In this document: positions 1 to 64,000 of the stretch, piece after piece
Numbering within the stretch: position 1 is the stretch's first letter
Layout: every line of letters begins with the position of its first letter
Source of the DNA: Saccharomonospora azurea NA-128
GTDB lineage: Bacteria; Actinomycetota; Actinomycetes; Mycobacteriales; Pseudonocardiaceae
NCBI RefSeq assembly: GCF_000231055.2
Contig: NZ_CM001466.1
Location: forward strand, 2,198,165 to 2,262,164
DNA: 64,000 bases
Reading direction: 5' to 3'
Notes under the pieces: model-generated
Databases searched by the model: none
What the model saw: only the letters and a program-made list of their open reading frames with translations
What the model was told of the DNA's origin: nothing
Made by a program: the position numbers and the translations under genes

Positions 1-18157
<18,157 letters not shown>

Positions 18158-18162
18158 TCTGA

Positions 18163-18170
18163 GCCACCTC
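18163..18170 (-). promoter_or_regulatory. Ribosome binding site selecting the TTG start of gene A
   Basis: On the minus strand, GAGGTGGC is followed 5 nt later by TTG at 18157 (9 nt counted from GAGG). The codons after it encode the start of a class-typical docking helix (ASEEKL). This supports a TTG start in the absence of an in-frame ATG or GTG. Confidence 0.7.
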
Positions 18171-18234
18171 AATCACCGCAGACTGCGAACGCCCGCCCCC
18201 AGCTATGGGCACACTATTCGCCCAATTCGGGGGA

Positions 18235-18281
18235 AACATATTTGACGTCCAGCAATGCGACAACCCTTAGGCAACCCCTAG
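18235..18281 (-). promoter_or_regulatory. Promoter of gene A with tandem heptamer operator
   Basis: Minus strand, 5' to 3': CTAGGGG (18281-18275), four bases, CTAAGGG (18270-18264), directly abutting TTGTCG as a -35-like hexamer (18263-18258), then a 17-nt spacer and TATGTT as -10 (18240-18235) preceded by AAA. Spacing and repeats match the promoter of gene C base for base in layout. The leader to the TTG start is about 70 nt. The activator is unknown. Confidence 0.6.
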
Positions 18282-18363: not shown

Positions 18364-21300
18364 TCAAGGCGCGCCGAGCTCCTTGTTGATGAACTCGAAG
18401 ATCTCGTCGTCCGTCGCCGAATCGAGCCGGTCGGTCACGTCCACTTCCTCCCGCTCGGCGTCACCGGCGGTCAGTCGCGCCAATGCGGCTTTGAGCCGGA
18501 CCACCGCCGCGTCGACCGAGTCCGGGTCGTCGGCCAATTCGGCGACCACGGAATCGAGCTGGTCGAACACGGCCTCGGCGCCGCTCGCTCCGGCCGGGGC
18601 CAACTGGTCGAGCAGGTGGTCGGCGAGCACCCCGGGCTTCGGGTAGTCGAAGACCAGAGTGGCGGGCAACGACAGACCGGTGGCGGCCCGCAGCTGGTTG
18701 CGCAGTTCCACGGCGGTCAGCGAGTCGAAGCCGAGCTCACGGAAGGCCTGCCCCACCTCGATGAGCTCCGGCCCGCTGTAGCCGAGGACCGACGCCGCCG
18801 TCTCGCGCACCAGGTCGAGCAGGAGCTGCCGTCGCGCGGGCGGGTGCGTGGCGGCGAGCTGCTGCCGCAAGTCCGTGCCCGCATCGGTGTCGGCCTGCCG
18901 GTGCGCGTCGTCGTCGGCCCGCTGCGCCGCCGGGATCGTGCGCAGCAGCGGGCTGGGGCGACGCGCGGTGAACACCTGCGTGAACGTCTCCCAGTTCACG
19001 TCGGCGACCGTCACGGTCGCATCGCCGTGCGCCGCGCCGAGCGCGGCCAACGCGCGCTCGGGCGGCAGGGCCGCGAGTCCACGCTTGGCGAGCTCCTGGC
19101 CCGCGTCGCCCTCGGCCATGCCGCCACCGGACCACGGACCCCAGGCCACGGACGTGCCCACGAGCCCGGCGGCCCGCCGCTGCTCGATCAACGCATCGAG
19201 GAATGCATTCCCCGCCGCATATCCGCATTGCCCACCGCTGCCCCAGGTCGCGGCGATCGAGGAGAACACGATGAATGCCGACAACGGCAATTCCTTCGTC
19301 GCCTCGTGCAGATTCCTCGCACCCGCGACCTTTCCGGACATGACGTTCTCGAATTCTTCGGCGGTGCATTCCACCAAGGGTGTCGACTGCGCGACCCCTG
19401 CCGCGTGGACGACGACCGACAGCTCGGGCAGTCGCGCCACCAGCCGGGCGGTCGCGTCCGGGTCGGCGACGTCACACGCCGCCAGGGTGACCTCGGTGCC
19501 CAGCTCACGCAGCTCGTCCGCGAGCTCCGCGGCACCCGGCGAGTCCGCACCACGGCGGCTGACGAGGACGAGGTGTCCGACGCCGCGCCCCGCCAACCAG
19601 CGCGCGACCTGCGACCCGAGTGCGCCCGTTCCGCCGGTGACCAGCGCGGTCCCGGAGAACGACCAGTCGCCGGGCGCGGGTTTCGGCGCGGGCACCAAGC
19701 GTCGGCCGAACACTCCCGTGTCGCGCACCGCGACCTGGTCCTCGGTGCCGTCGGCGAGGACGGCGAGGACGGCGTCCGTCTGCTCGCCCGCGTCGACGAT
19801 ACCGCCCCAGACCTCGGGATGTTCCAGGGCCACGACCCTCGCCAGGCCCCACACCTCGGCCTGTTCGGGCGAGGTGAGCCGGTCGTCGGGTCCGGTCGAG
19901 ACCGCTCCCCGGGTGACGGCCCAGACCTTGGTGTCCGAGCCGATCACCGCCTGCACCAGCTCCAGGGTGGCGGCGGCGTCGAGGAACGACACCACCCCGT
20001 CCGGGTCGGCCGATCGTTCGCTCCAGTCGGTCACCAGTTCCGCGTCCAGCGCGGCCGCGAGCGACGCGCCGGAGCCGTCGGGCGAGACGACCAGCCAGCG
20101 GCCGTCGGGACGGCCCGCGGGGACGGACACGGGCTGCCAGGTGATCTGATAGCGCCAGTCGTCGATCACCGACAACTCCCGCCGTCGGCGCCGCCACGCC
20201 GACAGGGACGGCAGCACGCTGCTCAGTGGTTGGTCCGGGTCCACCGACAGCACCGTCGACAACGACGCCAGGTCCTCGCTCTCCACTGCCTCCCAGAACT
20301 GCCGGTCGTCGACCTCCTCGGAACGCAGCACGGCGGACACCCAGTACCGCTCCCGCTGGAACGGATACGTGGGCAGGTCGACCCGGTTACCGCTGACCAG
20401 CGTCGTCCAGTCGACGGCGACTCCGCTCGCGTAGAGGGTGCCGAGGGCGGCGAGCACGGTGCGGGGTTCCGGCTTGCCCGCCCGCATCGTGGGCACGAAC
20501 ACCGCGTCCAGGTGGGGCAGACATTCCTGTGCCAGCGCGGTCAGCACCCCGTCGGGGCCGAGTTCCACGAACACCGTCACGCCGTCGTCGGCCAGGGTGC
20601 GCACACCGTCGCAGAACCGCACGGCCCGGCGCACGTGCGTCACCCAATACTCCGGCGACGCCAGGTCGGTCGCGCGTTGCCCCGTCACGTTGGACACCAC
20701 GGGGATCTCGGGCTCGCGGAACTCGATGCCGCGGAGGGTCTCCGCGAACTCGGCCAGCATCGGTTCCATCAGCGGGGAGTGGAACGCGTGGCTGACGGTC
20801 AGGCGCTTGGTCTTGCGGCCCTGCGCGGTGAACACCTCGGCGACGGCCAGGGCGGCCTTCTCCTCGCCGGAGACGACCACCGAACGCGGGCCGTTCACCG
20901 CGGCGATGTCGACCTCGCCCGCCGCCTCCTTGAGCTGCACCTGGACCTCGTCCTCGGTGGCCTCGACGGCCACCATCGCCCCGCCGGTCGGCAGGGCCTG
21001 CATCAACCGGCCCCGCGCGGCCACGAGCGCGCACGCGTCGGCCAGCGAGAACACGCCCGCGACGTGCGCGGCGGCGATCTCGCCGATGGAATGCCCGAGC
21101 AGGTAGTCCGGGCGGACTCCCCACGATTCGAGCAGCCGGAACAGCGCCACCTCGACCGCGAACAGTGCGGGCTGCGCGTACCCGGTCCGGTCGAGCAGCT
21201 CCGGCTCGGTGAGCATCACCTCGCGCAACGGCAGGTCGAGCAGCTCGTCGAGGTGCGCACACGCGGCGTCGAGCGCCTCGGCGAACACGGGGAACTCGGT

Positions 21301-22929
21301 GTACAGCTCACGGCTCATGCCGGCCCGCTGCGCACCCTGCCCGGTGAACAGGAACGCGATCCGCCCGTCGCCCGTCACACCGCGCACGACCGCGGGAGCC
21401 GAGCCGCCGTTCGCGACCGTGTCCAGGGCGGTGAGCAGCTCCGCCCGGTCCGTGCCGAACACGACCGCGCGGTGGTCCATGGAGGACCGCGTGGTCGCCA
21501 GCGAGTAGGCGACGTCCGTGACGTCCGGGCCGGTGGCGGCGACGAACGTCGCCAACTCGGTCGCGCGGGCGCGGAGTGCGGCCTCGCTCTTGCCGGACAG
21601 CACCCACGGGACCAGGGACGGCCTGGTCGGCGTCACCGGCGTGGACTCGGTTCTCGGTGCCTCCTCGATGATGGTGTGTGCGTTGGTGCCGCTGATGCCG
21701 AACGACGACACCGCGGCTCGTCGGGGCGTGTCGCCGGGTTTCCACGGCTGTGGCTCGGTGAGCAGCTCCACCGCACCGGACGACCAGTCCACATGCGACG
21801 ACGGCTCGTCGACGTGCAACGTCTTCGGCAACACACCGTGGCGCATCGCCATGACCATCTTGATGATGCCCGCGACACCCGCGGCGGCCTGCGTGTGACC
21901 GATGTTGGACTTCACCGAGCCCAGCCACAACGGCCGGTCGCGATCCTGGCCGTAGGTCGCCAGCAACGCCTGGGCCTCGATCGGGTCACCCAACGCGGTC
22001 CCCGTACCGTGCGCCTCCACCGCGTCGACCTCCGCGGGCCGCAGCCCGGCGTTCGCCAGCGCGGCCTGGATCACCCGGCGCTGCGACGGACCGTTCGGCG
22101 CGGTCAGACCGTTGGACGCGCCGTCCTGGTTCACCGCACTGCCCCGCACCACCGCCAGGACTTCGTGCCCGTTGCGCTGGGCGTCGGACAGCCGCTCCAC
22201 CAGGAGCATGCCCACACCCTCGCCCCAGCCGGTGCCGTCGGCGGCCTCGGCGAACGCCTTGCACCGACCGTCCGAGGCCAGGCCGCTCTGGGCGCCGAAC
22301 TCGACGAACGCACCCGGGGTCGCCATGACGCTGACCCCACCGACCAGCGCGAGGTTGCACTCGCCCGTGAGCAGGGCCTGGGTCGCCAGGTGCAGGGCGA
22401 CCAGCGACGACGAGCACGCCGTGTCCACCGTGACCGCCGGACCCTCCAGCCCGAACGTGTACGACACGCGACCGGACATCACACTCGCCGAGTTGCCCGT
22501 GCCACGGTGCCCGCCGAAGTCGTCGGTGGACTCCAGCAGCAGCGTGAGGTAGTCCTGGCCGTTCGACCCGACGAACACCCCGGTCCGGCTGCCCCGCAAC
22601 GACACCGGGTCGATGCCCGCCCGCTCGAACGTCTCCCACGACGTCTCCAGCAGCAACCGCTGCTGCGGGTCCATGGCCGTGGCCTCACGCGGCGAGATGC
22701 CGAAGAACGCCGGGTCGAAGTGACCGGCGTCGTGCAGGAAGCCGCCCTGGTCGACGTACCCGCCGCCGCGGTGGTCGAGGTCCCAGCCGCGGTCGGTGGG
22801 GAATCCCGTCATCGCGTCCACGCCGTCGGAGAGCAGCTGCCAGAACTGCTCCGGTGTCGACACCCCGCCGGGGAAGCGGCACCCGATACCGACGATCGCG
22901 ATCGGCTCCTCGACGCGCGCGGCCTGCAC
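18364..22929 (-). other. PKS module B4: KS-AT(malonyl)-KR(A-type)-ACP plus C-terminal docking
   Basis: The AT has HAFH near 20790. The KR has [15 protein letters not shown] (A-type, catalytic residues intact). About 100 residues follow the ACP, ending in an acidic docking helix ([12 protein letters not shown]). Confidence 0.87.
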
Positions 22930-25900
22930 CACGGTCTCCGTCGTGGTCCGGTCCGCACCGACGAGTTCGTCGCACAACCAGGCGGCGAGCGCGGCGGGTG
23001 TCGGGTAGTCGAACACCAGGCTGCTCGGCAACGACAGTCCGGTGACGGTGCCCAGGGCGTTGCGCAGCTCCACCGCGGTGAGCGAGTCGAAGCCGAGCTC
23101 CCGGAACGCGCGATCGCTCGTCACCGACTCCGGCCCCGGATAACCGAGCACGGTCGCCGCTTCGGCGCGGACGACCTCCAGAACGCGTGCTTCCTGCTGC
23201 TGCCGGGACAACCCGGCCACGGCACCGGCGAGCGAGTCCGGCGCAGGCTCACGTCGAGCTGGTTCGGCCACCGCCGCATCCGGCAGCTCCGCCAGGAGCC
23301 GACCGCCGAGCAGCGGGCCGAACCTCGGCCAGTCCACGTCGGCCACGACGAGCGCGGGATGCGTCGACCCGACGGCGTCGGCCAGGGCCTGCACCGCGCT
23401 GCCGGGGTCGAGAGCCGGCAGGCCCAGGGCCGCGAGGTCGTCGGCGACACCCGCGGCCATGCCCTCGCCCGCCCACGGGCCCCACGCGATGGCCGTTCCC
23501 GGCAGGCCGTCCGCCCGCCGCTGCTCGATCAACGCGTCGAGGTGGGCGTTGGCCGCCGCGTAGCTCGCCTGACCGGCGCTGCCGATCGCACCGGCGAACG
23601 CGGAGAACACCACGAACGCGTCGAGGTCGCCCGTCAGCTCGTGCAGCAGAGTCGCCCCGTCGACCTTCGCCCGCAGCACCCCTCGGACGCGATCGGGGGT
23701 CAGCCCCTCGATGACACCGTCGTCCAGCACGCCGGCCGCATGCACGACCGCCGAGGGCGGTGTGTCACGGACCAGCTCCGCGACGGCCTCGCGGTCGGTG
23801 AGGTCGCACGCCACGACGCTCACCTCGGCACCGAGCTCCCGCAGTGCCGCGGTCAACGCCTCGGCGCCCTCCGCGGCAGGCCCGCGACGGCTCACCAGCA
23901 CGAGGTGTTCGGCCCCGTTGGCCGCGGCCCAGCGCGCGACGTGGCCGCCGAGCGCTCCCGTCCCGCCGGTGATCAACACCGTGCCGCGAGGCTGCCACGG
24001 GCTCTCCACCGGTTCGGTCACCCGCACCAACCGGCGGGCGAACACCCCGGACCGCCGGACGGCGACCTGGTCCTCGTCCGCTTCCAGCACCCCGAGCATC
24101 CGCGCGCACGTCCCCGCGTCGGCGTCGACCGGCAGGTCGATCAGACCGCCCCAGCGGTCCGGCTGCTCCAGCGCAGCCACCCGGCCGAAGCCCCAGAGCT
24201 GGGCCTGGGCGGGATCGTCGACGCGCTCCCCCGGACCGGTCGACACGGCTCCGCGCGTGACGGCCCAGACCCGCGCCTCGATCTGCGCGTCACCCACGGC
24301 CTGGACGAGCGCGAGGAGGTCGACCACGTCGGTCAGGAGCGACACCACCGCCTTCGGCGCTTCGTCGACCTCCCGCAAGCGAGTGGCGAGGGTCTGCCGG
24401 TCGGCGCTCTCGACGACCGTGGCTCGCTCACCGAACACGGACAGCAGGTGGTCGTCCGCGGGTCCGCTGGGCACCACGATCAGCCAGTCGCCCTGCGGGC
24501 GCGGCTCGGGCAGCCGCACCGGGCGCCACGAGATGCGGTACTGCCACGACTGCAGCGACGCGCTGCGGCGCCACGCCGACAACGCGGGCAGCACGTCCGC
24601 GAGCACCCGCTGATCGACCCGCAGCGAAGCGGACAGGGATTCGAGGTCCTCCCGCTCGACCGCGTCCCAGAAGCGGGCGTCCACATCCGACAGTTCGGTG
24701 GCGGCCGGCTCGGAGCCGCTCAGCCAGTACCGTTCGCGTTGGAAGGCGTAGGTGGGCAGGTCGATACGGGTGCCCTGGACCAGCGTGGTCCAGTCGACGG
24801 CAACGCCACGGCAGTGCATCGCGGCCAACGCGCCGATCGCCGTGCGCACCTCGGGACGGTCGCCCCGCAGCACCGGCACGAACAGACCCTCGGACACCGA
24901 CTGCTGCGCCATCCCCGACAACACACCGTCAGGACCGAGCTCGACGAAGTTGCTCACACCCTGCGCAGCCAGGGTGGTGACGCCGTCGGCGAAGCGCACC
25001 GCTTCCCGCACGTGCGAGACCCAGTACTCCGGCGAAGCCAGGTCGTTCGACAGCTCGCCGGTCAGGTTCGACACCACCGGAATCCGCGGCTGCTGGAACA
25101 CAAGCCCGCCAAGGACCTCGCGGAACTCGTCCAGCATCGGCTCCATCAACGGCGAATGGAACGCATGACTGACAGCGAGCCGCTTCGTCTTACGACCCCG
25201 AGCAGAGAACTCCTCCGCCACCGCAAGCACAGCCGACTCGACACCAGAGATCACCACGGAGCTCGGGCCGTTGATCGCGGCAATCCCGAACTCGTCGGTC
25301 GGCTCGAACTCGTCTTCAGTGCCCTCGATCGCCACCATCGCCCCACCAGCAGGCAGAGCCTGCATCAAACGCCCACGAGCGGCCACCAGCGTGCACGCAT
25401 CTTCCAACGACAACACACCGGCAACATGAGCGGCAGCGATCTCACCGATCGAATGCCCCATCAGGAAATCGGGGCGCACACCCCACGACTCCAGCAGCCG
25501 GAACAACGCCACCTCGACCGCGAACAACGCAGCCTGCGCGAACTCCGTCTGATTCAGCTCTTGCTCGTCACCCTCGATCACCTCACGCAAACGCGGATGC
25601 AACAGCTCACACGCCGCATCAAACGCCTCAGCGAACACCGGGAACTCGCCATACAGCTCACGCCCCATGCCCACCCGCTGCGCACCCTGGCCCGTGAACA
25701 GGAACGCCGTCTTCCCCGCGCCGACGGTTCCGCGGACCACGTCGGCCGACGATGCGCCGTCGGCCAGGGCTTCGAGCGCGTGGACGAGCTCGGCGCGGTC
25801 GTGCCCCAGCACAACCGCCTGCTCGGGCAGAGCCGCGCGGCTGGTGGCGAGGGAGAACGCGACGTCCTCGACCCGGGCGGTGTTCGCGAGCGGCAGCAGC

Positions 25901-28900
25901 CGCGCCGCCTGAGCACGCAGCGCGGCCTCGGTCTTGGCCGACAGCACCCACGGCACCACCGAGGGCACCGGGGCCCGCTCGGCCGTCTCCGGCGTCGCCG
26001 GCGTCCCCGCCTGTTCGAGGATCACGTGGGCGTTGGTGCCGCTCACACCGAACGACGAGACCGCCGCTCGCCGGGGACGTCCGTCCTCCCCCCACGGCCG
26101 GGGTTCGGTCAGCAGTGACAACGGGCCGGAGTCCCAGTCGATCCGGGAGGTCGACCGCTCGGCGTGCAGGGTGCTCGGCAGCAGGCCGTGCCCCATGGCC
26201 AGCACCATCTTGATCACGCCCGCGACGCCCGCGGCGGCCTGCGTGTGCCCGATGTTCGACTTCACCGAGCCCAGCCAGAGCGGCCGGTCGCGGTCCTTGC
26301 CGTAGGTGGCCAGCAGCGCCTGCGCCTCGATCGGGTCACCCAGCGCCGTACCGGTGCCGTGCGCCTCGACGGCGTCCACATCGGACGGAGTCAGACCGGC
26401 GCTGGTGAGCGCGTCGCGGATCACCCGCTGCTGCGACGGACCGTTCGGTGCGGTGAGGCCGTTGGACGCACCGTCCTGGTTCACCGCGCTCCCGCGCATG
26501 ACCGCCAGGACCCGGTGTCCCTTGCGCTGCGCGTCCGACAGCCGTTCCACCAGCAACACACCGGCGCCCTCACCCCAGCCGGTGCCGTCCGCGTCGTCCG
26601 CGAACGCCTTGCACCGACCGTCGGAAGCGAGGCCGCCCTGCGCGCTGAAGCCTTCGAAGGCGGTGGGCGTCGACATGATCGTCACGCCGCCCGCCAGGGC
26701 CATGTCGCACTCTCCCTGGCGCAGCGCCTGCGCCGCCCAGTGCAGCGCCACCAGCGAGGACGAACACGCGGTGTCGACCGTGACCGCGGGGCCTTCGAGA
26801 CCGAACGTGTACGCGACCCGACCGGACACGACGCTGGGCGTGGTGCCGATCATCAGGTGCGCTTCGACGGATTCCGGGAGGTCGTCGACACCGGCGGCGT
26901 ATCCCTGGGGACCGGCACCGACGAACACGCCCGTGCGGCTTCCCCGCGCGGTGGTGATGTCGATCCCGGCGTGTTCGAACGCCTCCCAGGAGGTCTCCAG
27001 CAGCAGCCGCTGCTGCGGGTCCATCGCCAACGCCTCACGCGGCGAGATGCCGAAGAATTCGGCGTCGAACGCCGCGGCGTCGTGGAGGAAACCGCCTTCG
27101 CAGACGAACTCGCCCTCGACCTTCCACCCCCGGTCGGAGGGGAAGCCGGAGATCGCGTCCCGTCCGGACTGCACGAGCTCCCAGAAGTCGTCCGGTGAGT
27201 CCACGCCGCCGGGGAACCGGCAGCCGATGCCCACGATCGCGATGGGTTCGTCACTGGCCCCGGTGCGCTGCGGCTGCTCGCTGACGACGACCTGCGTGCC
27301 GAGGAGTTCGTCCCGCAGGTACCCGGCCAGCGCGGTGGGCGTCGGGTAGTCGAACACCAGCGTCGCGCTCAGCGTGAGGCCCGTCGCCTCGGAGAGCCGG
27401 TTGCGCAGCTCGACCGCGGTGAGCGAATCGAAGCCCAGGTCGCGGAACGGCGCCTCGGTCCCGATGGCGTGGGGATCGGGGTAGCCGAGGACGGCGGCCC
27501 CTTCCGAGCGCACCAGGTCGAGCAGGAACGTCTCGCGCGCGGTCTCGGACATCGCACGCAGGTCGCGCGCGAGGTCGGAGTCCGGGCTCGACTCCGCGTG
27601 CACAGGCTCCTCGACCCGCGCCTCCGGGATGGTCGAGAGCAGCGGACTCGGCCGGTGCGCGGTGAACACGGGTGCGAAGGTGGCCCAGTCCACGTCGGCC
27701 ACGGTGACGGTGACGTCGCCGTGTTCCTCGGCCGTCGCCAGCGCGGCCAGCGCGCGCTCCGGGGCGAGCGCGGACAGACCGATCCGGCGGAGCTGGTCCT
27801 CCGCCTCACCCGCGGCCATGCCGCCGCCCGCCCACGGACCCCACGCGATGGCCGTTCCGGCGAGGCCGTGCGCGCGGCGCCGTTCGACCAGCGCGTCGAG
27901 ATAGGCGTTGGCCACGGCGTAGGCGCTCTGCCCGCCGCTGCCCCACGTCGCGGCGATCGAGGAGAACACCACGAACGCGGACAGGTCCTCGGTGAGCTCG
28001 TGCAGGTGGCGCGCGCCGAGCACCTTCGCGGCCACGACCTCGGCGAACTCGGCCGGGCCGATGTCGGTCAACGGAGTGACCTGCGCGGCGCCGGCGGCGT
28101 GCACCACCGCCTGCACGGGGGCACCGTCGTCCGACAACGACGACAGCATCCGCTCGACGGCGTCGCGGTCGGCGACGTCACACGCGACGACCGTGACGTC
28201 GCTGCCGAGGCCACGCAGCTCGTCGACGAGCTCGGCCGCGCCGTCGGCCTCCGCGCCACGTCGGCTGCACAGCACCAGGTGTTCGGTGCCGTTGCGGGCG
28301 AGCCACCGGGCGACGTGCGCGCCCAGCGCCCCGGTGCCCCCGGTGATCAGGGTCGTGCCCCACGGTCGCGGTTCGGGCGCCGTGCCCGTGCGCGGGGCGG
28401 GGACCAGCCTGCGGACCCGGATTCCCCGGGCGCGAACGGCCACCTGGTCCTCGCCGCCGGACAGCAACGAGACCGCCGTGGCGACCAGGTCGGCGTCCGC
28501 CGTCGCGGGAAGGTCGACGACGCCGCCCCACAGCGAGGGCAGTTCGAGCGCGGCGACCCGGGCGAGCCCCCACACCTGCGCGGCCTCGGGGTCCGGCGCC
28601 TCGTCCGGCGCGACGGACACCGCGTCGCGGGTGATGGCCCACACCCGGGTGGCGACCTCGGAGTCGGCGACCGCCTGGAGCAGCACGAGCGTGTCGGCCG
28701 CGTCCAGCAGCGACACCACACCGTCCGGCGTGTGCTCCGCGAGCCGCGCGGCCAGCGAGGCCCGCTCGACGTCGTCGAGCACGAGCACGTCGGCGTCCGG
28801 CAGAGCGGCGACGATCGCGTCGGCCTGTTCGGCTCGACGCGCCACGACCAGCCACGATCCCTCGGGAACACCGGTGCTGCCCGAGTACGGCTCCCAGTCG

Positions 28901-31900
28901 ACCCGGTACCGCCAGCCGGAGACGGCGGCGGCGTCGGCACGGCGCCGGTGCCACGCCGACAGCGACGGCAGCAGCGCCCGCAACGGTTCGTGGTCCTCAC
29001 CGCGGATCCGCAACGCCGCGGCCAACGACTCCACGTCGGCGCGCTCGACGGCGGCCCAGAACTCGGCGTCGACGGGCGCGGCCTGCCCCGCCTGGGCGGG
29101 AGTGTCGAGCCAGTAGCGCTCCCGCTGGAACGCGTACGTCGGCAGGTCCACGGCGCGGGCGCCGGGGAACACGGCGTCCCAGTCGAGCGGCACGCCCCGG
29201 ACGTGCAGTCCGGCCAGCGCCGTGAACAGCGACGTCTCCTCGGCGCGGTCCTTGCGCAGCACCGGCAGGTACTCGGCCTCCGGCAGGGTGTCCTGCGCCA
29301 TCGCGGACAGCACGCCGTCCGGGCCGAGCTCGACCACCGTGCGGACCCCGCGCTCCTTCAGCACGGCGACCCCGTCGGCGAAGCGGACCGCGTGACGCAC
29401 GTGCCGGACCCAGTAGTCCGGGCCCAGGTCCACGGCCTGCGAGCCGGTCACGTTGGACACGATCGGGATCGACGGTGCGGCGAAGTCGAGGCCGCGCAGA
29501 ACCTCGGCGAACTCGGCCAGCATCGGTTCCATGAGCGGCGAGTGGAACGCGTGGCTCACGCGCAGGCGTCGGGTCTTCCTCCCCGCCGCGGAGAACCGCT
29601 CGGCCACGGCGACGACGGCGGCCTCGGAGCCGGAGAGCACCACCGACCTCGGCCCGTTGATCGCGGCGATGTCGACCTGGTCGGTGGTCTCGATCTCGTC
29701 CTCGGTCGCCTCGACGGCGATCATCGCCCCGCCCTCGGGCAGCGCCTGCATCAGGCGGCCCCGGGCCGTCACGAGCGTGCACGCGTCCTGCAGGGACAAC
29801 ACACCGGCGACGTGCGCGGCCGCGATCTCCCCCACGGAGTGCCCGACCAGGACGTCCGGGCGCACACCGAACGAGGTGAGCAGCCGGAACAACGCGACCT
29901 CGACGGCGAACAGCGCCACCTGAGTGCAGTCGGTCTGGTCGAGTCGGCCCTCGGGGTCCGCGTGCGCGAACACGATGTCCCGCAGTGGCAGGTCGACGTG
30001 GGCGCAGACGGCGTCGAACGCCTCGGCGAACACGGGGAACCGCTCGTACAGCTCGCGGCCCATGCCCACGCGTTGTGCGCCCTGGCCGGTGAACAGGAAC
30101 GCGAGCCCACCCGTCACGGGCGTGCCGCCGACCACCTGCGCCGAGGATCGCCCGTCCGCCAGCGCGGCGAGCCCGGCGAGCAGGTCCTCCCGGTCGTGGC
30201 CCAGCACGACGGCCCGTTGGGTCAGCGCCGATCGGGTCGTGGCCAACGAGAATCCCACGTCGGCCGGGTCGGTGGACTCGTCGACGGCGTCGCGCAGCTG
30301 CCTCGCCTGGGCCCGCAGTCCCTCCTCGGTCGCGCCGGACAGGGGCCACGCGAGCACACCGTGCGCGCTCGGCGTGGTGCGCGCGGGCACGGGCTCCGTC
30401 GCCGGTGCCTCTTCGAGCACCGCGTGCGCGTTGGTGCCGCTCAGCCCGAACGACGACACACCCGCCCGGCGCGGCCGGTCGCCCCGACGCCACGGCAGGG
30501 CTTCGCGGACGACGTCCATCGTGCGCGACGACCAGTCGATGTGCGGGCTCGGCTCGTCGAAGTGCAACGAGGGCGGCAGCGTGTCGTGCTGCAGCGCGAG
30601 CACCATCTTCATCACGCCCGCGACACCCGCCGCGGCCTGCGTGTGACCGATGTTCGACTTCACCGACCCCAGCCACAACGGCCGGTTCCGGTCCTTGCCG
30701 TATGTGGCCAGCAGTGCCTGCGCCTCGATCGGGTCGCCCAGCGCGGTACCGGTGCCGTGCGCCTCGACGGCGTCCACATCGGACGGCTGTACTCCCGCGT
30801 TGGCCAGCGCCTGCCGGATTACCCGCTGCTGCGCGGGGCCGTTCGGGGCCGTGAATCCGTTGGACGCGCCGTCCTGGTTGATCGCGCTGCCCCGGACCAC
30901 GGCCAGGATGGTGCGGCCGTTGCGTTGGGCGTCGGACAGCCGCTCCACCAGCAGCATGCCCACGCCCTCGCCCCAGCCGGTGCCGTCCGCGGCGGCGGCG
31001 AAGGGCTTGCAGCGGCCGTCGGCGGCCAACCCGCCCTGCGTGCTGAACTCGACGAACGCGCTCGGTGTGGACATCACCGTCACACCACCGACCAGCGCCA
31101 GTTCACACTCGCCGTTGCGCAGGGCCTGCACCGCGAGATGCAGCGCCACCAGCGACGACGAGCACGCCGTGTCCACCGTGACGGCCGGGCCCTCCAACCC
31201 GAACGTGTAGGCGACCCGACCGGACATCACGCTCGCGGAGTTGCCGGTGCCGAGGTAGCCGTCGGTCTCCGGCCCGCCCTGGTCGACCAGGGCGACGTAG
31301 TCCTGCCCGTTGGTGCCGACGAACACGCCGACCGGCTTGCCGCGCAGCGAGTCCACCGCGATGCGCGAGCGTTCGATGGCCTCGTACGAGCTTTCCAGCA
31401 GCAACCGCTGCTGCGGGTCCATCGCCAGGGCCTCGCGCGGCGAGATGCCGAAGAAGCGCGGCTCGAAACCCGCCACGTCTTCGAGGAACGCGCCCTGCCT
31501 GGTGGAAAGGCGGGCGTCGACGTCCCAGCCGCGGTCGGTCGGGAAGCCCCCGACCGCGTCCGTGCCGGACACCATCAGCCGCCAGAAGTCCTCCGGAGTC
31601 CGCACCCCGCCCGGGAACCGGCACGCCATGGAGACGATGGCGATCGGCTCGTCGGTGCTGTCGTGCGCGGCCACCACCGGTGCGGCGTCCTGCGTGCCGA
31701 GCAACTCGTCGAGCAGGTATCCGGCCAGCGCGTCGGGGTTCGGGTAGTCGAAGACCAGACTGCTGGGCAACGTCAGGCCGGTCTCGGCCGCCAGCCGGTT
31801 GCGCAGCTCCACTGCGGTGAGCGAGTCGAATCCGAGTTCGCGGAACGCGTGGGAGCGTTCGACGGCCTCCGGGCCCGCGTACCCCAACACCGCGGCGGCC

Positions 31901-34900
31901 TCGCGGCGGACGAACTCCACCACGAGGTTTTCCTGCTCGCTCCGGCCGAGCCCGGCGAGCTCGGCGGCGAGTCCGGTGGGTTCGTCGTCCGCGGGCGCGG
32001 GCGCGAGCACGCTCAGCAGTGGGCTCGTGCGGGCCGACTGGAACGCCGGAGCGAACCGGGACCAGTCCACGTCGGCCACCACCGTCACCGCGTCGCCGCC
32101 GGTGGCGACGCGGGCCAGTTCGGCCACGGCCGTGTCCGGGTTCAGGGCGGGCAGTCCGAGCTCGGCCAGGCTGCCGGCGGCGCGCTCGGCCATGCCGCCA
32201 CCCGCCCACGGGCCCCACGAGATCGAGGCGGCGGGCAGGCCGTCGGCGACGCGCTGCTCGGCGAGGGCGTCGAGCACGGCGTTCGCGGCCGCGTAGTTGC
32301 CCTGCCCCGCGCTGCCGACCGTGCCGGCGAAGGCGGAGAACAGCACGAACGCCGTGAGGTCGAGGTCGCGGGTCAGTTCGTGCAACCACAGCGCCGCGTC
32401 GGCCTTCGCACCGAGCACGCCGGTGAACTGCTCCGCCGACATGTGTTCGAGCACGCCGTCGTCCAGCACACCCGCGGTGTGGACCACAGCGGTCAGCGGG
32501 TGCTCGTCGGAGTTCGCGTGGTCGACGAGCGCGGCGAGCGCCTCGCGGTCGGTGACGTCGCACGCCACGATCGACACCTCGGCACCGAGGTCGCGCAGCT
32601 CCGCGTCGAGCTCGGGCGCCTCACCACCACGGCTGGCGAGCACGACTCGCGTGGCCCCGTGAGCGGCGGCCCAGCGGGCCACGCGCGCACCGAGCGCCCC
32701 GGTTCCGCCCGTAATCAGGATCGTGCCGGTGGGCTCCCAGGGAGCGGCGTTCGCCCCGGCCCGGACGAGTCGGCGGGCGAACACCCCGTTCGCGCGGATC
32801 GCCACCTGATCCTCGGACCCGGTGAGCACCGCGGCGACGTGGTCGAGCGTGTGTCGGTCGAGCTGCGCGGGCAGGTCGAGGAGCCCACCCCAGCGGTCGG
32901 GATGTTCGAGGGCGGCGACCCGCCCGAGCCCCCACACCGCCGCGTGCTCCGGCCGCTCCACCCGGTCGCCTGCGCCCGTGGACACCGCCTGCCGGGTCAC
33001 CGCCCACACCGGTGCCGACGGCCCGCTCTGCAGGAGCCGGAGCGTGCCCACCGCGTCGAGCAGCGACACCACGCCCCGGAAACGCTGCTGTGCCACGCGG
33101 TCGAGGTCGTCGACGCCGTGGAGGACCTCGACGTCGGCGAAGATCGTGAGCAGGCCGGGCTCGTCGCACCCTTCGGGCAGGACCAGCAGCCAGCGGCCGT
33201 CCAGGTTCGGCGCACCGGGTGTCACCGGCTGCCAGTCGAGCGTGTAGCGGCGGCCAGCGGCGTCCGTGTGCCGCTGCCTGCCCCAGGTGGCGCCCTCGAA
33301 CCAGAACTGCTGACGCTGGAAGGCGTAGGCGGGCAGGTCGATCCGGCCGCCCTGGACCAGGGCCGTCCAGTCGACAGCGACACCACGGGTGTACATCGCG
33401 GCCAGGGCACTCAGCGCGGTGCGGACCTCGGGCCGGTCGCCCCGCAGCACCGGAACGAACAGACCGTCGGACACCGACTGCTGCGCCATCCCCGACAACA
33501 CACCGTCAGGACCGAGCTCGACGAAGTTGCTCACACCCTGCGCAGCGAGAGTGACGACGCCATCGGCGAAACGCACCGCCTCCCGCACATGCGACACCCA
33601 ATACTCCGGCGAAGCCAGATCATTCGACAGCTCGCCGGTCAGGTTCGACACCACCGGAATCCGCGGCTGCTGGAACACAAGCCCGCCGAGGACCTCGCGG
33701 AACTCGGCGAGCATCGGCTCCATCAACGGCGAATGGAAAGCATGACTGACAGCGAGCCGCTTGGTCTTGCGACCCCGAGCTGCGAAGTCCTCCGCCACGG
33801 CGAGAACAGCCGACTCGACACCAGAGATCACCACGGAGCTCGGGCCGTTGATCGCGGCAATCCCGAACTCGTCGGTCGGCTCGAACTCGTCTTCAGTGGC
33901 CTCGACGGCCACCATCGCCCCACCGGCAGGCAGAGCCTGCATCAAACGACCCCGCGCCGCGACCAGCGTGCACGCGTCTTCCAACGACAACACACCGGCA
34001 ACATGAGCGGCAGCGATCTCACCGATCGAATGCCCCATCAGGAAGTCCGGCCGGACACCCCACGATTCGAGGAGCCGGAACAGCGCCACCTCGACCGCGA
34101 ACAACGCGGCCTGAGCGAACTCCGTCTGATTCAGCTCTTGCTCGTCACCCTCGATCACCTCACGCAAGCGGGGGTTCAGCAGCTCACACGCCGCATCAAA
34201 AGCCTCGGCAAAGACGGGGAACTCGGCATACAACTCACGCCCCATACCGATCCGCTGCGCACCCTGGCCGGTGAACAGGAACGCGGTCCTGCCCCGAGTC
34301 GCCACACCTGTGACGACGTTCGGCGACGACGTGCCCTCGGCCAGCGCGGCGAGCCCCGCGTCGAGGTCGCCGAGCACCACGGCCCGGTGGTCCAAGGCCG
34401 CCCGGGTCGTGGCCAGGGAGAACGCCAGGTCGACCGGGTCGACGTCCTCGGCGGTGGGCCGCAGCTTCTCGGCCTGCGCGCGTAGGGCCGTCGCGGTCTT
34501 GCCGGACAGCACCCACGGGACGATCGACGGCGCGACGCGCTCGACCGGCAGCTCCGGGGAGTCCGGAGCCTGCTCGATCACGGCATGCGCGTTGGTGCCG
34601 CTGAATCCGAACGACGAAACGCCCGCTCGGCGTGGTGTGTCACCGGCAGGCCAGGGCTGCGCCTCGGTGAGCAACTCCACCGCACCGGCCGACCAGTCCA
34701 CATGCGACGACGGCTCGTCGACGTGCAACGTCTTCGGCAGCACACCGTGCCGCAGCGCCATGACCATCTTGATTACACCCGCCACACCCGCGGCGGCCTG
34801 CGTGTGACCGATGTTCGACTTCACCGACCCCAACCACAACGGCCGGTTCCGGTCCTTGCCGTATGTGGCCAGCAGTGCCTGCGCCTCGATCGGATCACCC

Positions 34901-35943
34901 AGCGCGGTCCCCGTACCGTGGGCCTCGACGACGTCCACATCGGACGCCGAAAGCCCGGCGTTGGCGAGCGCGGCTCGGATCACCCGACGCTGCGACGGAC
35001 CGTTCGGTGCCGTCAGCCCGTTGGACGCGCCGTCCTGGTTCACCGCCGAGCCCCGCACCACCGCGAGCACCGTGTGGCCGTTGCGCTGGGCGTCCGACAG
35101 CCGCTCCACCAGCAGCACACCGACACCCTCGCCCCAGCCGGTGCCGTCCGCCGCGTCCGCGAACGCCTTGCACCGGCCGTCCTCGGCGAGTCCACGCTGC
35201 CTGCTGAAGTCGAGGAACGCGGCGGGCGTCGACATGATCGTCACACCGCTCGCCAGAGCCATGTCGCACTCGCCGTTGCGCAACGCCTGCACCGCCAGGT
35301 GCAGGGCGACCAGCGACGACGAACACGCCGTGTCCACCGTGACCGCCGGGCCCTCCAGCCCGAACGTGTACGACACGCGTCCCGACAGCACGGCGGCCGC
35401 GTTCCCGGTGCCCAGAAACCCTTCGAGCTCGTCCGGGCCGTGCTCCAGCAGCGACACGTAGTCCTGGTTGTTGGTCCCGGCGAAGACGCCGGTCCTGCTG
35501 CCCTTCACCGACAGCGGATCGATCCCCGCCCGCTCGAACGCCTCCCACGACGTCTCCAGCAGCAACCGCTGCTGCGGGTCCATCGCCAACGCCTCACGCG
35601 GCGAGATCCCGAACAGGCTCGGATCGAACTGGCCGGCGTCGCGGACGAACGCTCCCTCCCGGGTGTAGCTCGTCCCCGGGTGCTCGGGGTCCGGGTGGTA
35701 GAGCGTCTCCAGCGGCCAGCCCCGGTCGGTGGGGAATCCCGCGACCGCGTCCCCGCCTGCGGCCAGCAGTTGCCACAGCTCCTCGGGCGAGCTCACGTCA
35801 CCGGGATACCGGCAGGCCATGCCGACGATGGCGATCGGCTCCCGCGCGGCCGCCTGCAGACGCTGGTTCGTCTCGCGCAGGCGGTTGTTCTCCTTGAGCG
35901 ACGCCCTCAGTGCGTCGACGACTTTTTCGGAAGGCGTTGTCAT
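18364..35943 (-). CDS. Type I modular PKS, four malonyl/ketoreducing modules (gene B)
   Basis: A 5,859-residue PKS of four modules, each KS-AT-KR-ACP with no DH or ER. Residues 1-32 are a docking helix ([18 protein letters not shown]). Approximate starts: KS 33, AT 548, KR 1072, ACP 1366; KS 1429, AT 1947, KR 2528, ACP 2830; KS 2899, AT 3410, KR 3987, ACP 4280; KS 4343, AT 4860, KR 5430, ACP 5733. A C-terminal docking segment ends in [12 protein letters not shown]. All four ATs carry HAFH (malonyl). KR types are B, A, B, A. The ATG at 35943 is preferred, with AGGGA upstream and the docking helix right after it. A TTG at 35970 in the same frame overlaps the stop of gene C as TTGA and would add nine residues. 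The overlap or near-overlap means translational coupling to gene C. Predicted role: four consecutive beta-hydroxy extensions of a polyol chain. Confidence 0.96.
22930..27264 (-). other. PKS module B3: KS-AT(malonyl)-KR(B-type)-ACP
   Basis: The AT has HAFH near 25160. The KR has HAAGVLDDG (B-type). Like B1, it has FSAFAGAIG (near 23600), with Ala at the catalytic serine position. Confidence 0.85.
27265..31679 (-). other. PKS module B2: KS-AT(malonyl)-KR(A-type)-ACP
   Basis: The AT has GHSVGE and HAFH near 29550. The KR has no LDD and carries the A-type Trp in [15 protein letters not shown] with intact Ser and Tyr. The AT is more divergent in DNA from the other malonyl ATs of this cluster. Confidence 0.87.
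31680..35943 (-). other. PKS module B1: KS-AT(malonyl)-KR(B-type)-ACP
   Basis: The AT has HAFH near 33740. The KR has HTAGVLDDG (B-type). The serine-loop reads FSAFAGTVG (near 32330), so the residue 13 before the active Tyr is Ala instead of Ser. KR activity is therefore uncertain. Confidence 0.85.
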
Positions 35944-35947
35944 CTCA

Positions 35948-35952
35948 TCCCT
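35948..35952 (-). promoter_or_regulatory. Ribosome binding site for gene B ATG start
   Basis: AGGGA on the minus strand lies 4 nt before the ATG at 35943, inside the short segment after the stop of gene C (35967-35969). The spacing is slightly short, but it is the best site for the start that begins the docking helix. Confidence 0.5.
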
Positions 35953-35966
35953 AGGAACTGTGGCCG

Positions 35967-52655
<16,689 letters not shown>

Positions 52656-52664
52656 CCGATGCAC

Positions 52665-52672
52665 ACCTCTTC
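52665..52672 (-). promoter_or_regulatory. Ribosome binding site selecting the GTG start of gene C
   Basis: GAAGAGGT on the minus strand precedes GTG at 52655 by 9-10 nt. The alternative in-frame GTG at 52664 directly abuts the site and is too close to be used. Confidence 0.6.
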
Positions 52673-52776
52673 ACGACGCACCCGCACAGCCGCCGAGTAC
52701 CGCAGACCATTCGCCGCCACAATGCGAGGAAAATGGCAGGACAAATGAACGCGCACTTGCCGCACAATTCAGGCTG

Positions 52777-52823
52777 AGAATATTTCCGGCCGGTGTGGGG
52801 CAACACCCCTAGCCGTCCCCTAG
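52777..52823 (-). promoter_or_regulatory. Promoter of gene C with tandem heptamer operator
   Basis: Minus strand, 5' to 3': CTAGGGG (52823-52817), ACGG, CTAGGGG (52812-52806), then TGTTGC as a -35-like hexamer (52805-52800), a 17-nt spacer and TATTCT as -10 (52782-52777) preceded by AAA. The same layout occurs before gene A. The leader to the GTG is about 115 nt, in a stretch visibly richer in A and T than its surroundings. Confidence 0.6.
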
Positions 52824-52849
52824 CTCGGTCGAGACGGACGGACATGGCC

Positions 52850-52889
52850 GACATGGCCTCCCGGTCGGAAGACACCGAGAGGCCACGTC
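52850..52889 (-). terminator. Hairpin downstream of the dehydrogenase gene, candidate terminator
   Basis: GACATGGCCTC (52850-52860) pairs with GAGGCCACGTC (52879-52889) with one mismatch. The stem continues after a C/A mismatch with CGGT (52862-52865) and ACCG (52874-52877), leaving an 8-nt loop. It begins 16 nt past the stop codon of the dehydrogenase. There is no T-tract, which is common for actinomycete terminators. It separates that gene from the promoter of gene C. Confidence 0.6.
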
Positions 52890-52905
52890 CGTCACGACGA
52901 CGCGA

Positions 52906-55257
52906 TCATTCGATCGTGTAGTAGACCGTGTAGGTCGTGGGTTCCTCCGGGGCGTCGATGATCCGGCTGGCACCGGCACCGTCCTCCCACCGGTCGAACA
53001 CCAGCACGTACGGCGGGATCTCGATCCGGGCGGCCGCGCTGACCGAGAGGGAGCTGCCGACGATGACCCTGATGGTCGAGTCGGTGACCACGCCGTAGTT
53101 GCCGACCGTCACCCCGATGCCCTCGGGATCGGACTTGAACGTCAGGTCGACGGTCTTGGGCTGCAACTCGATGGTCTTGGTTCCCACGTTGCCGTCGGAG
53201 TCCCGGGCGCTCAGCGTCAGTTCGAGGTGCGACGGGTACGGGTGGTCGGGTGCGATGAACTCACCGGACGAGCCCGTGAAGGTCTCGATGTCGTGGCTGT
53301 GGCAGTGACCGTCGTGGGCGCAGTGCCGCATGGTCAGCTTCCAGGTCAGCGCCGACTCGGGCAGCGTGCCGTCCTTGGCGTCCGTGGCACCGCCGGAGAA
53401 GGACACCTTCTGGCCCACGTGCCATCGGAGATCCGTGTCCGGGGTGTCGATCACCGGTGTCGGTTCCGGAGCCGGTGCGTTGTCGACCACCACGTCGACC
53501 CTGGCGATCGAACTCTTGCCGCCGGGGTCGGTGACCTTCAACGCGGGCCGCACGAACTCCTTCTCCGGGTAGATCCAGAACGCGATGGGCAGCCTGCCGT
53601 CGTCGAACTCACCGTCGCCGTCGAGATCCCACTCGTAGCGGAGCCGGTCGCCGTCGGGGTCGCTCGAACCGCGGCCGTCGAACATCACCAGCAGCGGCGA
53701 CTTCCCCTCCGTGGGCTTGGCCTTGATCACGGCCTCGGGCTCGGTGTTCGGGTCGTCGTCGTGCACGATGCGACGCAGCTCGCCGGTGTCGAGCGACACG
53801 TAGTACAGGGCGCCGTCCGGGCCGAACTCCAGCTGCACCGGCACCGACAGTCCCTGGGCGAACGTCGTCACGTCGGCGGGGTTCGGCGCGCCGTCGGCGT
53901 CCTTGCCCATCACCCAGATGCAGCCGCGCGTGCTGTCGCTGAAGAACAGCGCACCACGGTAGGGCTCGGGCAGCGTCTCCCCGTCGGCGAACGCGAACCC
54001 GGACAGCGAAGCGCCGCCGGTGTTCGGGCACGTGTCGTCCGGCGACACCTTCTCGCCGCTGGTGTACTGGAGCACGGGCTTGCGGTCGCTGCCCTCCGCG
54101 TAGAGCGTGTCGCACATCGTCAGCCCGGTGGCCTGCCAGCTCGGGTGCGGCTCCGCGCCCTCGAAGCACGGCCAACCGAAGTTCGGGGCCTCCGTGGAAT
54201 CCGGCACGAACCGGTTGATCTCGTCGGCCCGCGCCTCACCGACGTCGCCGACCCACACCTCGTTGCTCTCGGGGTGGACGACGAAGCGGAACGGGTTGCG
54301 GAAGCCGTACGCCAGGATGCGTCGCTTGTTCTCGTCGGCGCTGTCCGCGTACGGGTTGCCGGCCACGCCCTCGCCGGTGTCGGGGTCGATGCGGATGACG
54401 CTGCCGTTCAGCACCGCCGGCTCACCGTCGGGGCGACGCGGCGACTGAGCGCGCAGCGAACCGCCACGGGCGTCCGGGATCGTGAGGTCGGTCCCGGCGT
54501 CGCCCGGCGGGTCGGCGCACGGGTTGCCCTGCTGGCCGTAGTCGGCGAAGTTGAAGCTCGCGCCCTCACCGGCGCTGGCGTACAGCGCGCCGTCGGGGCC
54601 GAACGCCAGGGTGTCCGCGCTGTGACTCGGATACTGCTGACACCAGCCGTCGACCAGTGTCTCCGGAGCCTGCGCGACACCGTCCTCGCCCATCGTCAAC
54701 TTGACGAGCCGGTTGGTGACCACGCACCCGTCCTCGGTGTACCCGGGCGGGGACGGACACTGGTCGTTCCACACCGGCGCGGTCTGCCCGGGTGGGGCGT
54801 CGCGAGTGTAGAAGGCGTAGACGTGCGGCTTCTCCGGGAACTCCGGGTGCACCGCGAGGCCGAGCAGGCCACGGTCCCAGCCGTTGAACACCTCGGTGCT
54901 CAGGTCGGCGAAGACCCGTGAGGTGTCGGAGTCCACGTCGTCCCACACCCGGATCACACCGTCTTTGTCGCCGACGAAGGTCGTGCCGTCGGGTGCGAAG
55001 GCCGCCACGGTGGGCTCGGTGAGCCCCGAGATGGCCGTCTCGTCGCGGAATCCCTCCGGGACCGCGGCTGCCTCGACGCCCGCGCCCTCGACGTCGTCAC
55101 GTGGGGGGTAGAGAACCGACTCGTCGTTCGTACGCACCTGTCCGGGAGTCGCCATACCGAGCGCACCGGTCAGCATGGTCGCCCCCACGACCAGCACGGC
55201 TGTTATCACCGCGAGCGGCCGTAACCGCGTCCGCGATCTCGTTTCCGGAGATGTCAT
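52906..55257 (-). CDS. Secreted PQQ-type glucose/sorbosone dehydrogenase-like protein with PKD domain
   Basis: 783 residues. The N terminus has four arginines (7-13), a hydrophobic stretch (14-33) and a plausible signal-peptidase site after Ala36, so export is likely. Residues about 45-485 match the beta-propeller of the glucose/sorbosone dehydrogenase (GSDH) family: GLLGLAVHPEF near 128, SHSADTLAFGPDG near 209, AYGFRNPFRF near 314. In soluble glucose dehydrogenase the equivalent His and Arg-Asn contact PQQ and substrate. A PKD domain follows (FDGRGSSDPDGD near 520, YEWDLDGDGEFDD), then Ig-like segments with a His/Cys-rich patch (HCAHDGHCHSHD, about 642-653). Many cysteines suit a secreted protein. 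The ATG at 55257 is preferred, with GAAGGAAG 8 nt upstream. A GTG at 55293 would add 12 residues before the signal peptide. The gene lies 52 bp after PKS gene D, so it is probably co-transcribed with it. Substrate unknown; oxidation of a sugar or polyol alcohol is the family reaction, and a role in the polyketide pathway is inference. Confidence 0.88.
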   Translation of the reverse strand: MTSPETRSRTRLRPLAVITAVLVVGATMLTGALGMATPGQVRTNDESVLYPPRDDVEGAGVEAAAVPEGFRDETAISGLTEPTVAAFAPDGTTFVGDKDGVIRVWDDVDSDTSRVFADLSTEVFNGWDRGLLGLAVHPEFPEKPHVYAFYTRDAPPGQTAPVWNDQCPSPPGYTEDGCVVTNRLVKLTMGEDGVAQAPETLVDGWCQQYPSHSADTLAFGPDGALYASAGEGASFNFADYGQQGNPCADPPGDAGTDLTIPDARGGSLRAQSPRRPDGEPAVLNGSVIRIDPDTGEGVAGNPYADSADENKRRILAYGFRNPFRFVVHPESNEVWVGDVGEARADEINRFVPDSTEAPNFGWPCFEGAEPHPSWQATGLTMCDTLYAEGSDRKPVLQYTSGEKVSPDDTCPNTGGASLSGFAFADGETLPEPYRGALFFSDSTRGCIWVMGKDADGAPNPADVTTFAQGLSVPVQLEFGPDGALYYVSLDTGELRRIVHDDDPNTEPEAVIKAKPTEGKSPLLVMFDGRGSSDPDGDRLRYEWDLDGDGEFDDGRLPIAFWIYPEKEFVRPALKVTDPGGKSSIARVDVVVDNAPAPEPTPVIDTPDTDLRWHVGQKVSFSGGATDAKDGTLPESALTWKLTMRHCAHDGHCHSHDIETFTGSSGEFIAPDHPYPSHLELTLSARDSDGNVGTKTIELQPKTVDLTFKSDPEGIGVTVGNYGVVTDSTIRVIVGSSLSVSAAARIEIPPYVLVFDRWEDGAGASRIIDAPEEPTTYTVYYTIE

Positions 55258-55265
55258 GCCGTCTG

Positions 55266-55275
55266 CTTCCTTCTC
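55266..55275 (-). promoter_or_regulatory. Ribosome binding site of the dehydrogenase gene
   Basis: GAGAAGGAAG on the minus strand lies 8 nt upstream of ATG at 55257. The upstream GTG at 55293 has no comparable purine-rich site, which decides the start. Confidence 0.6.
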
Positions 55276-55309
55276 GGTGGACCTCGTCGTCACCCACGCG
55301 AACCAGAGG

Positions 55310-64000
<8,691 letters not shown>

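Follow-up and report, generated by a model that had tools for sequence, protein, structure and literature searches.

The window analysed here is a stretch of 64,000 nucleotides (positions 2198165–2262164) of the genome of Saccharomonospora azurea NA-128, a single contig of 4,763,852 bases, and gene calling together with Pfam searches was carried out over 164 kb around it. On the minus strand, the window carries a PKS gene at 35967–52664 (5565 aa, three KS domains), overlapped by a second PKS gene at 18364–35970 (5868 aa, four KS), and the two presumably form one transcription unit, referred to here as the C-B unit. PKS gene A, also on the minus strand, occupies positions 1–18172 of the window; its ORF of 8653 codons, with five KS, runs on to genome position 2190378 and is followed by the last PKS gene, in which Pfam finds a thioesterase domain. 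Genes for a VinK-like acyltransferase and a PMT_2 glycosyltransferase, and a divergent P450 gene, lie upstream of the loading PKS, and the cluster's other end holds an agmatinase-family gene, an ABC transporter, a separate thioesterase, an AMP-binding ligase and a flavin amine oxidase. Regulators are gathered at the low-coordinate end, namely two histidine kinases, two GerE response regulators, one OmpR-type (Trans_reg_C) response regulator, a LAL regulator and a 983-codon AAA_16/TPR protein.

With 16 KS and 17 ACP domains in total, the cluster is marginolactone-like by its gene set, which matches that of marginolactones primed with a guanidinobutanoyl unit, as excerpts of two papers describe them (PMC7522111; PMC4737276). 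The primycin cluster of Saccharomonospora azurea likewise includes agmatinase, glycosyltransferase, ABC transporter and two-component genes and a guanidinobutanoyl-primed PKS, but the excerpted description gives that PKS 18 extender modules (PMC7522111), as against the 16 KS found here, and we therefore rejected an assignment to primycin. We also observed that an AT-domain reading frame is broken at 63036–63220 (minus strand), between the ORFs 63036–70742 and 55310–63220. In two other genomes of the family, G093 and G147, the best matches to both pieces directly adjoin in one frame; either an error of assembly or a genuine frameshift could explain the break. Between the PKS genes, a glucose/sorbosone-dehydrogenase-like protein with a PKD domain is encoded at 52906–55293 on the minus strand, followed by a strong hairpin, and both the gene end and the hairpin look kept in two relatives. 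The hairpin (52853–52886, minus strand; 13-pair stem, 8-nt loop) lies between the stop of this gene and the tandem heptamer site of the C-B unit described below. The region 52824–52915 gave a folding z of −3.45, and the arms are largely kept in relatives. The hairpin was missed by the terminator scan and has no clear T tract, and it is a possible terminator.

An earlier note on this DNA had claimed that the gaps before both PKS units hold CTAGGGG-N4-CTA(G/A)GGG on the coding strand, and we found that both sites are exact. The site of the C-B unit, at 52806–52823 on the minus (coding) strand, reads CTAGGGG-ACGG-CTAGGGG (CTAGGGGACGGCTAGGGG), with its heptamers at 52817–52823 and 52806–52812. That of gene A, at 18264–18281 on the same strand, reads CTAGGGG-TTGC-CTAAGGG (CTAGGGGTTGCCTAAGGG), with heptamers at 18275–18281 and 18264–18270. 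A TANNNT hexamer, the predicted −10, begins 23 nt after the second heptamer in both cases (TATTCT at 52777–52782 and TATGTT at 18235–18240, both minus), so that the phasing of the two promoters is identical. Counted from these predicted −10 elements, the first heptamer would span about −53 to −47 and the second about −42 to −36. The same note had placed a TTG-containing −35-like hexamer and a 17-nt spacer directly after each operator. Here the 23-nt distance to the −10 stood, but a common TTG register did not: counted from the end of the second heptamer, the TTG of PKS A starts at nucleotide 1 and that of PKS B at nucleotide 3, 2 nt apart, so that a true −35 element is not common to both, and the 17-nt spacer is true only when TGTTGC and TTGTCG are taken as the −35 hexamers. 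The leaders, described as otherwise unrelated, are not wholly so, since both carry GAATTG 6 nt after the −10 hexamer. A promoter scan found no sigma-70 consensus promoter in 52600–53000. A G-quadruplex reading of the repeats was dropped, as there are only two G runs.

The earlier note regarded a high frequency of the motif elsewhere in the genome as evidence against its reading. CTAGGGG-N4-CTARGGG matched exactly only twice in the whole 4.76-Mb genome, each time at a PKS promoter and 23 nt before a −10-like hexamer, and the same pattern read backwards had no exact match. When up to two mismatches were allowed, 11 sites were found, five of them between 2160124 and 2271815 (112 kb, 2.3% of the genome; P = 2.9e-6 for at least five of 11, with the interval defined by the matches themselves). 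All five are intergenic by gene calling. The restriction of the motif to two PKS gaps thus held for the exact motif, but not for its near-matches, three of which lie in the cluster outside the window: GTAAGGG-N4-CTAGGGG stands 62 nt before the AMP-binding ligase gene, CTAGGGG-N4-ATAGGGG 40 nt before the P450 gene, and ATAGGGG-N4-CTAGGGG at 2160124, between the LAL gene and a thioesterase gene, where neither a good −10 nor a called gene in its orientation was found. Neither the agmatinase gene of the S. azurea NA-128 cluster nor, in the operon's own orientation, the PMT_2/starter-AT/loading-PKS operon was found to have a tandem site before it. A matrix scan of the 164 kb gave scores of at least 14 to the same five sites and no others, and nothing reached 14 in 10 Markov-model sequences; since the heptamer columns were set by hand after seeing the cluster sites (the −10 columns came from 23 sites elsewhere), the scan describes these sites and does not test them independently. 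Two controls at lower stringency did not set the motif apart. Shuffles of the window with up to three mismatches gave a mean of 4.74 matches against two observed, leaving the motif unseparated from chance, and the backward-read pattern with up to two mismatches gave 80 genome matches against 11 for the forward motif. We attribute the outcome of the shuffles to CTAG being rarer in the real sequence than its dinucleotides suggest, and regard the backward-read control as an unfair baseline on the same ground. On the whole-genome counts and the related genomes, we hold the motif to be unusual in spite of the window shuffles.

Among the 249 genomes of the family searched, S. azurea NA-128 (G000) included, G093 and G147 carry both PKS sites letter for letter, and all 18 operator bases are invariant in the three clusters at both promoters. 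Between G000 and G093, identity over the 110 bases upstream of the motif was 58/110 and 69/110 at the two promoters, as compared with 24 and 25 of the 30 bases after it. The rest of the aligned leader was identical at 70/122 positions in PKS B and at 74/92 in PKS A; in PKS A, conservation thus reaches past the −10 and beyond the promoter into a well-kept leader. As in G000, the P450 and the ligase have sites in both orthologous clusters: ATAGGGG-N4-ATAGGGG precedes the P450 gene, and ATAAGGG-N4-TTAGGGG occupies the gap from the LAL gene to an AMP-binding gene. A further tandem site is conserved in both (G093:C20:280596 and G147:C27:300970), for which no counterpart was found in G000. In G093 its orientation is toward a putative ORF (369 aa, signal-like start, no Pfam match) next to the AAA_16 gene, and not toward agmatinase.

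The spacing of the repeats was examined with CTAGGGG-N(0–25)-CTARGGG. In the family sample, in which overlapping repeats and related genomes were counted separately, 27 of 107 matches had a spacer of 4 and 15 a spacer of 3, the other spacers averaging 2.7. A class-wide sample of 394 genomes (spacers 0–14) gave 11 of 99 at spacer 4, two of these in G000, 14 at spacer 3 and 15 at spacer 7, the last group consisting in part of palindromic repeats of one genome. The excess at spacers 3–4 is modest class-wide, which weakens any claim of a universal spacing; a period of 10–11 bp is preferred, most clearly in the host's family. As to other arrangements, genome G499 has several CTAGGGG-(7 nt)-CTA(G/A)GGG sites containing a palindrome (contigs C3, C9, C21 and C24), possibly a repeated element or an inverted-repeat operator. 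In genus g8 (L038–L042, L051), conserved triple repeats TAGGGG/CTAGGGG/CTAGGGG with an 11-bp period were seen, with a LAL gene 4–6 kb away in five of the six genomes.

A scan of the GTDB species genomes for CTAGGGG-N4-CTAGGGG-T gave at least 116 loci, which we split at 66% GC. Among the matches listed, 51 high-GC and 64 lower-GC loci had at least 45 nt downstream, and one was dropped. TANNNT followed the second heptamer at 23 or 24 nt in 24 of these 51 high-GC loci and in none of the 64 lower-GC loci, and at any other single offset from 0 to 43 it occurred at most once in the high-GC set. The presence of the hexamer went together with PKS genes: among the matches listed, a KS was found within 3 kb downstream at 17/24 high-GC loci with the hexamer at 22–25 nt, as compared with 1/23 high-GC loci lacking it there and 0/57 lower-GC sites (12 loci with less than 400 nt were left aside). 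Both the hexamer and the KS counts include two orthologous clusters and a few near-duplicates. We also combined the family search with the GTDB matches listed, excluding this cluster and its orthologues, which gave 69 high-GC sites; 29 had the hexamer at 22–25 nt, 23 of them non-redundant, and the other 40 were dropped. Of the 23, 22 yielded a downstream ORF, each of which was scanned with Pfam, six as an N-terminal piece of 800–825 aa. KS-containing PKS genes accounted for 13, from sources that include Streptomyces, Micromonospora, Actinoplanes, Actinomadura, Amycolatopsis and Streptacidiphilus. Six encode other enzymes (an AMP-binding enzyme, a DegT aminotransferase, two zinc dehydrogenases, a P450 and a VinK-like acyltransferase), and three were unclear.

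The candidate reader of the repeats is the LAL regulator encoded at the cluster edge, about 38 kb before the window start (genome 2157068–2159857, minus strand). The protein has the domains of a LAL, AAA_16 at residues 8–167 and GerE at 866–918 of its 929 aa (Pfam), and showed no Pfam match to a PAS domain at E ≤ 0.001. Its gene lies 57 and 91 kb from the two PKS sites. Relatives of this protein (P0004) were scored with three candidates per genome and matches listed down to 382 bits; among the matches listed, they occurred within 75 kb of 20 of the 27 family spacer-4 sites, these 20 being spread over 17 genomes, against 0.67 expected. Seven sites were missed: two are the second sites of their clusters, at distances of 78 and 91 kb; another is 354 kb from the nearest listed relative but has a weaker LAL match about 31 kb off; and for four (in G189, G048 and G140, and one site in G051) the contig carries no listed LAL. 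In an alignment confined to proteins of motif-bearing genomes or loci, 16 of 17 LuxR-type proteins had ST(V/I)EQHLT in the recognition region of GerE; the cluster's aligned response regulator does not have it. It may be that LALs and the motif each merely accompany PKS clusters. Neither the related genomes nor the PKS clusters can be counted as independent, many matches coming from a few genera, and the LAL counts are to be read without phylogenetic independence. The tight phase to the −10, together with the co-localisation with LAL genes, nevertheless makes a direct link between LAL and motif more likely, short of proof.

Known systems offer parallels to parts of this arrangement. The LAL prototype is MalT of E. 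coli, which multimerises when ATP and inducer are present and then binds boxes near −35, and excerpts on MalT promoters describe a STAND/LAL activator with a LuxR-type C-terminal domain and asymmetric direct-repeat box pairs overlapping −35 (PMC7567727, PMC4381067). Such a placement would fit the present sites if the predicted −10 is used. The E. coli box itself, GGGGA(T/G)GAGG, differs from the CTARGGG repeats, and the Actinoplanes MalT site, given in the excerpted text as the inverted repeat TCATCC-N5-GGATGA (PMC7567727), is unlike the direct repeats here. The half-site is nearer to that of the PAS-LuxR regulator PimM, which controls macrolide clusters and whose operator is given in excerpt as CTVGGGAWWTCCCBAG (PMC9942304); its half-site CTAGGGA is nearly the heptamer found here, but PimM sites are inverted repeats read by a PAS regulator, whereas here direct repeats accompany an AAA_16 protein without a PAS match. 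The simplest model, in which the GerE domains of a LAL multimer would sit on tandem CTAGGGG, combines features of MalT and PimM. The operator of MilO, a LuxR-family regulator of mildiomycin, is given as TGTCNNNCGGT, with 2-nt spacers, a 13-bp period and a position 142 bp upstream of the start, and differs from the N4 spacer and 11-bp period of the present sites. A G-rich LAL core is reportedly mentioned in industrial patents, and RifZ is said to have an inverted CTACC-N8-GGATG site. In the excerpted text of the RifZ paper (PMC7062684), CTACC was not found. MilR, AveR, PikD, FkbN and GdmRI/RII are likewise cluster-situated polyketide activators with AAA and LuxR-HTH domains, and the excerpts of the three papers concerned (PMC5015266, PMC3551636, PMC6784220) contain no CTAGGGG operator for them. 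No published description of a CTAGGGG tandem operator was found in the literature searched, available in part and mostly from outside the subscription journals.

Taken together, these data suggest that the tandem heptamer is the operator of the 929-aa LAL at the cluster edge, a reading based on sequence comparisons to which we assign a probability of roughly 0.7. We infer its steps, from ATP dependence and oligomerisation to binding, activation and the transcription starts, as follows. The ATP-bound LAL would oligomerise, as in MalT, and adjacent GerE domains would occupy the pair of direct repeats, which are spaced by a helical turn (11 bp), next to or overlapping the −35 region. RNA polymerase would then be recruited by the LAL to promoters whose −10 is usable and whose −35 is poor, and PKS C-B, PKS A, the P450 and the starter-unit ligase would be switched on together. 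A dedicated activator bound at about −53 to −36 and serving both PKS units, as had been proposed without naming a regulator, is supported as the best reading by the rarity, the conservation, the −10 phase and the LAL co-localisation, but a regulon of the C-B unit and gene A alone appears too small, because the P450 and ligase genes have sites too.

An alternative to the LAL is the AAA_16/TPR ATPase of the cluster (983 codons; genome 2176500–2179448, L012:7501–10449, outside the window), which has no GerE domain and might read the operator through a possible OmpR/SARP-like winged-helix C-terminus; we consider this unlikely. The protein is present in all three orthologous clusters, and its relatives lie near four of the 27 spacer-4 sites against 0.15 expected (52 matches listed, at least 422 bits). 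All four belong to this cluster (G000) or to its orthologues in G093 and G147, and so count as a single case. Moreover, in genome G021, where the motif occurs, nothing matched the protein at E ≤ 0.001 among three candidates scored. In 200 of the 249 family genomes the protein was matched at that threshold, many of the matches being partial. Its last ~175 residues have no Pfam match and are 60–82% identical in 19 relatives. For the predicted fold of this C-terminus (mean pLDDT 74), the nearest solved structures are mostly OmpR/PhoB-type DNA-binding domains, plus an AfsR complex, but all these matches are weak, none reaching E ≤ 0.001. The C-terminal domain may bind DNA.

It appears less probable still that the repeats are read by one of the response regulators, either of the two NarL-type (GerE) proteins or the OmpR-type (Trans_reg_C) one, although all three and the two histidine kinases are encoded at the low-coordinate end of the cluster. 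OmpR-type domains bind direct repeats with an 11-bp period. PhoP boxes, for instance, are given as 11-nt repeats in the excerpted text of PMC6784220, and up-regulation of a two-component kinase and regulator in a primycin-overproducing strain is described in excerpt (PMC7522111). The aligned response regulator (2175544–2176194) has a GerE helix unlike that of the LALs, however, and in other genera the motif recurs near LAL genes.

A SARP-family activator, which we regard as very improbable, would account for the form of the site, CTAGGGG-N4-CTARGGG being a pair of heptameric direct repeats with an 11-bp period. Classical SARP promoters have the 3′ repeat about 8 nt from the −10, and the distance of 23 nt here and 23/24 nt elsewhere is unlike that spacing. 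BTAD genes were within 75 kb of one of the 27 sites against 3.15 expected (150 of 935 matches listed, none of them from G000), and Pfam gave no BTAD match in the cluster genes scanned. Heptameric direct repeats are also reported, in the excerpted source, to be bound by SARP-LAL regulators (PMC5930380). CsoR copper repressors, whose operators are described in excerpt as G-tract pseudopalindromes (PMC3902906), were set aside, the sites here being direct repeats. That the repeats have no regulatory role, the two promoters being alike by coincidence or because they go back to a promoter duplication, with which their common GAATTG at equal distance after the −10 is compatible, is the least credible reading in view of the genome-wide rarity and clustering, the conservation and the recurrence in the same phase in other genera.

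LALs control many macrolide clusters, but their target DNA is ill defined; for the geldanamycin regulators, for example, the recognition sequences are described in excerpt as still to be elucidated (PMC6784220). The CTARGGG tandem repeat is, on the sequence data, a candidate operator code for LAL-controlled PKS clusters. We give a little better than even odds to the wider proposal that CTARGGG-N4-CTARGGG, followed after 23/24 nt by TANNNT, is the operator–promoter code of a broad LAL branch, present in several actinomycete families and used mainly for modular PKS, starter-unit and tailoring genes. If so, the code would represent a MalT-like direct-repeat arrangement of a PimM-like half-site. 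The combination of a regulator class with a fixed promoter geometry would then allow regulon membership in silent PKS clusters to be predicted, and checked with one purified DNA-binding domain, so that the regulons of such clusters could be read from sequence.
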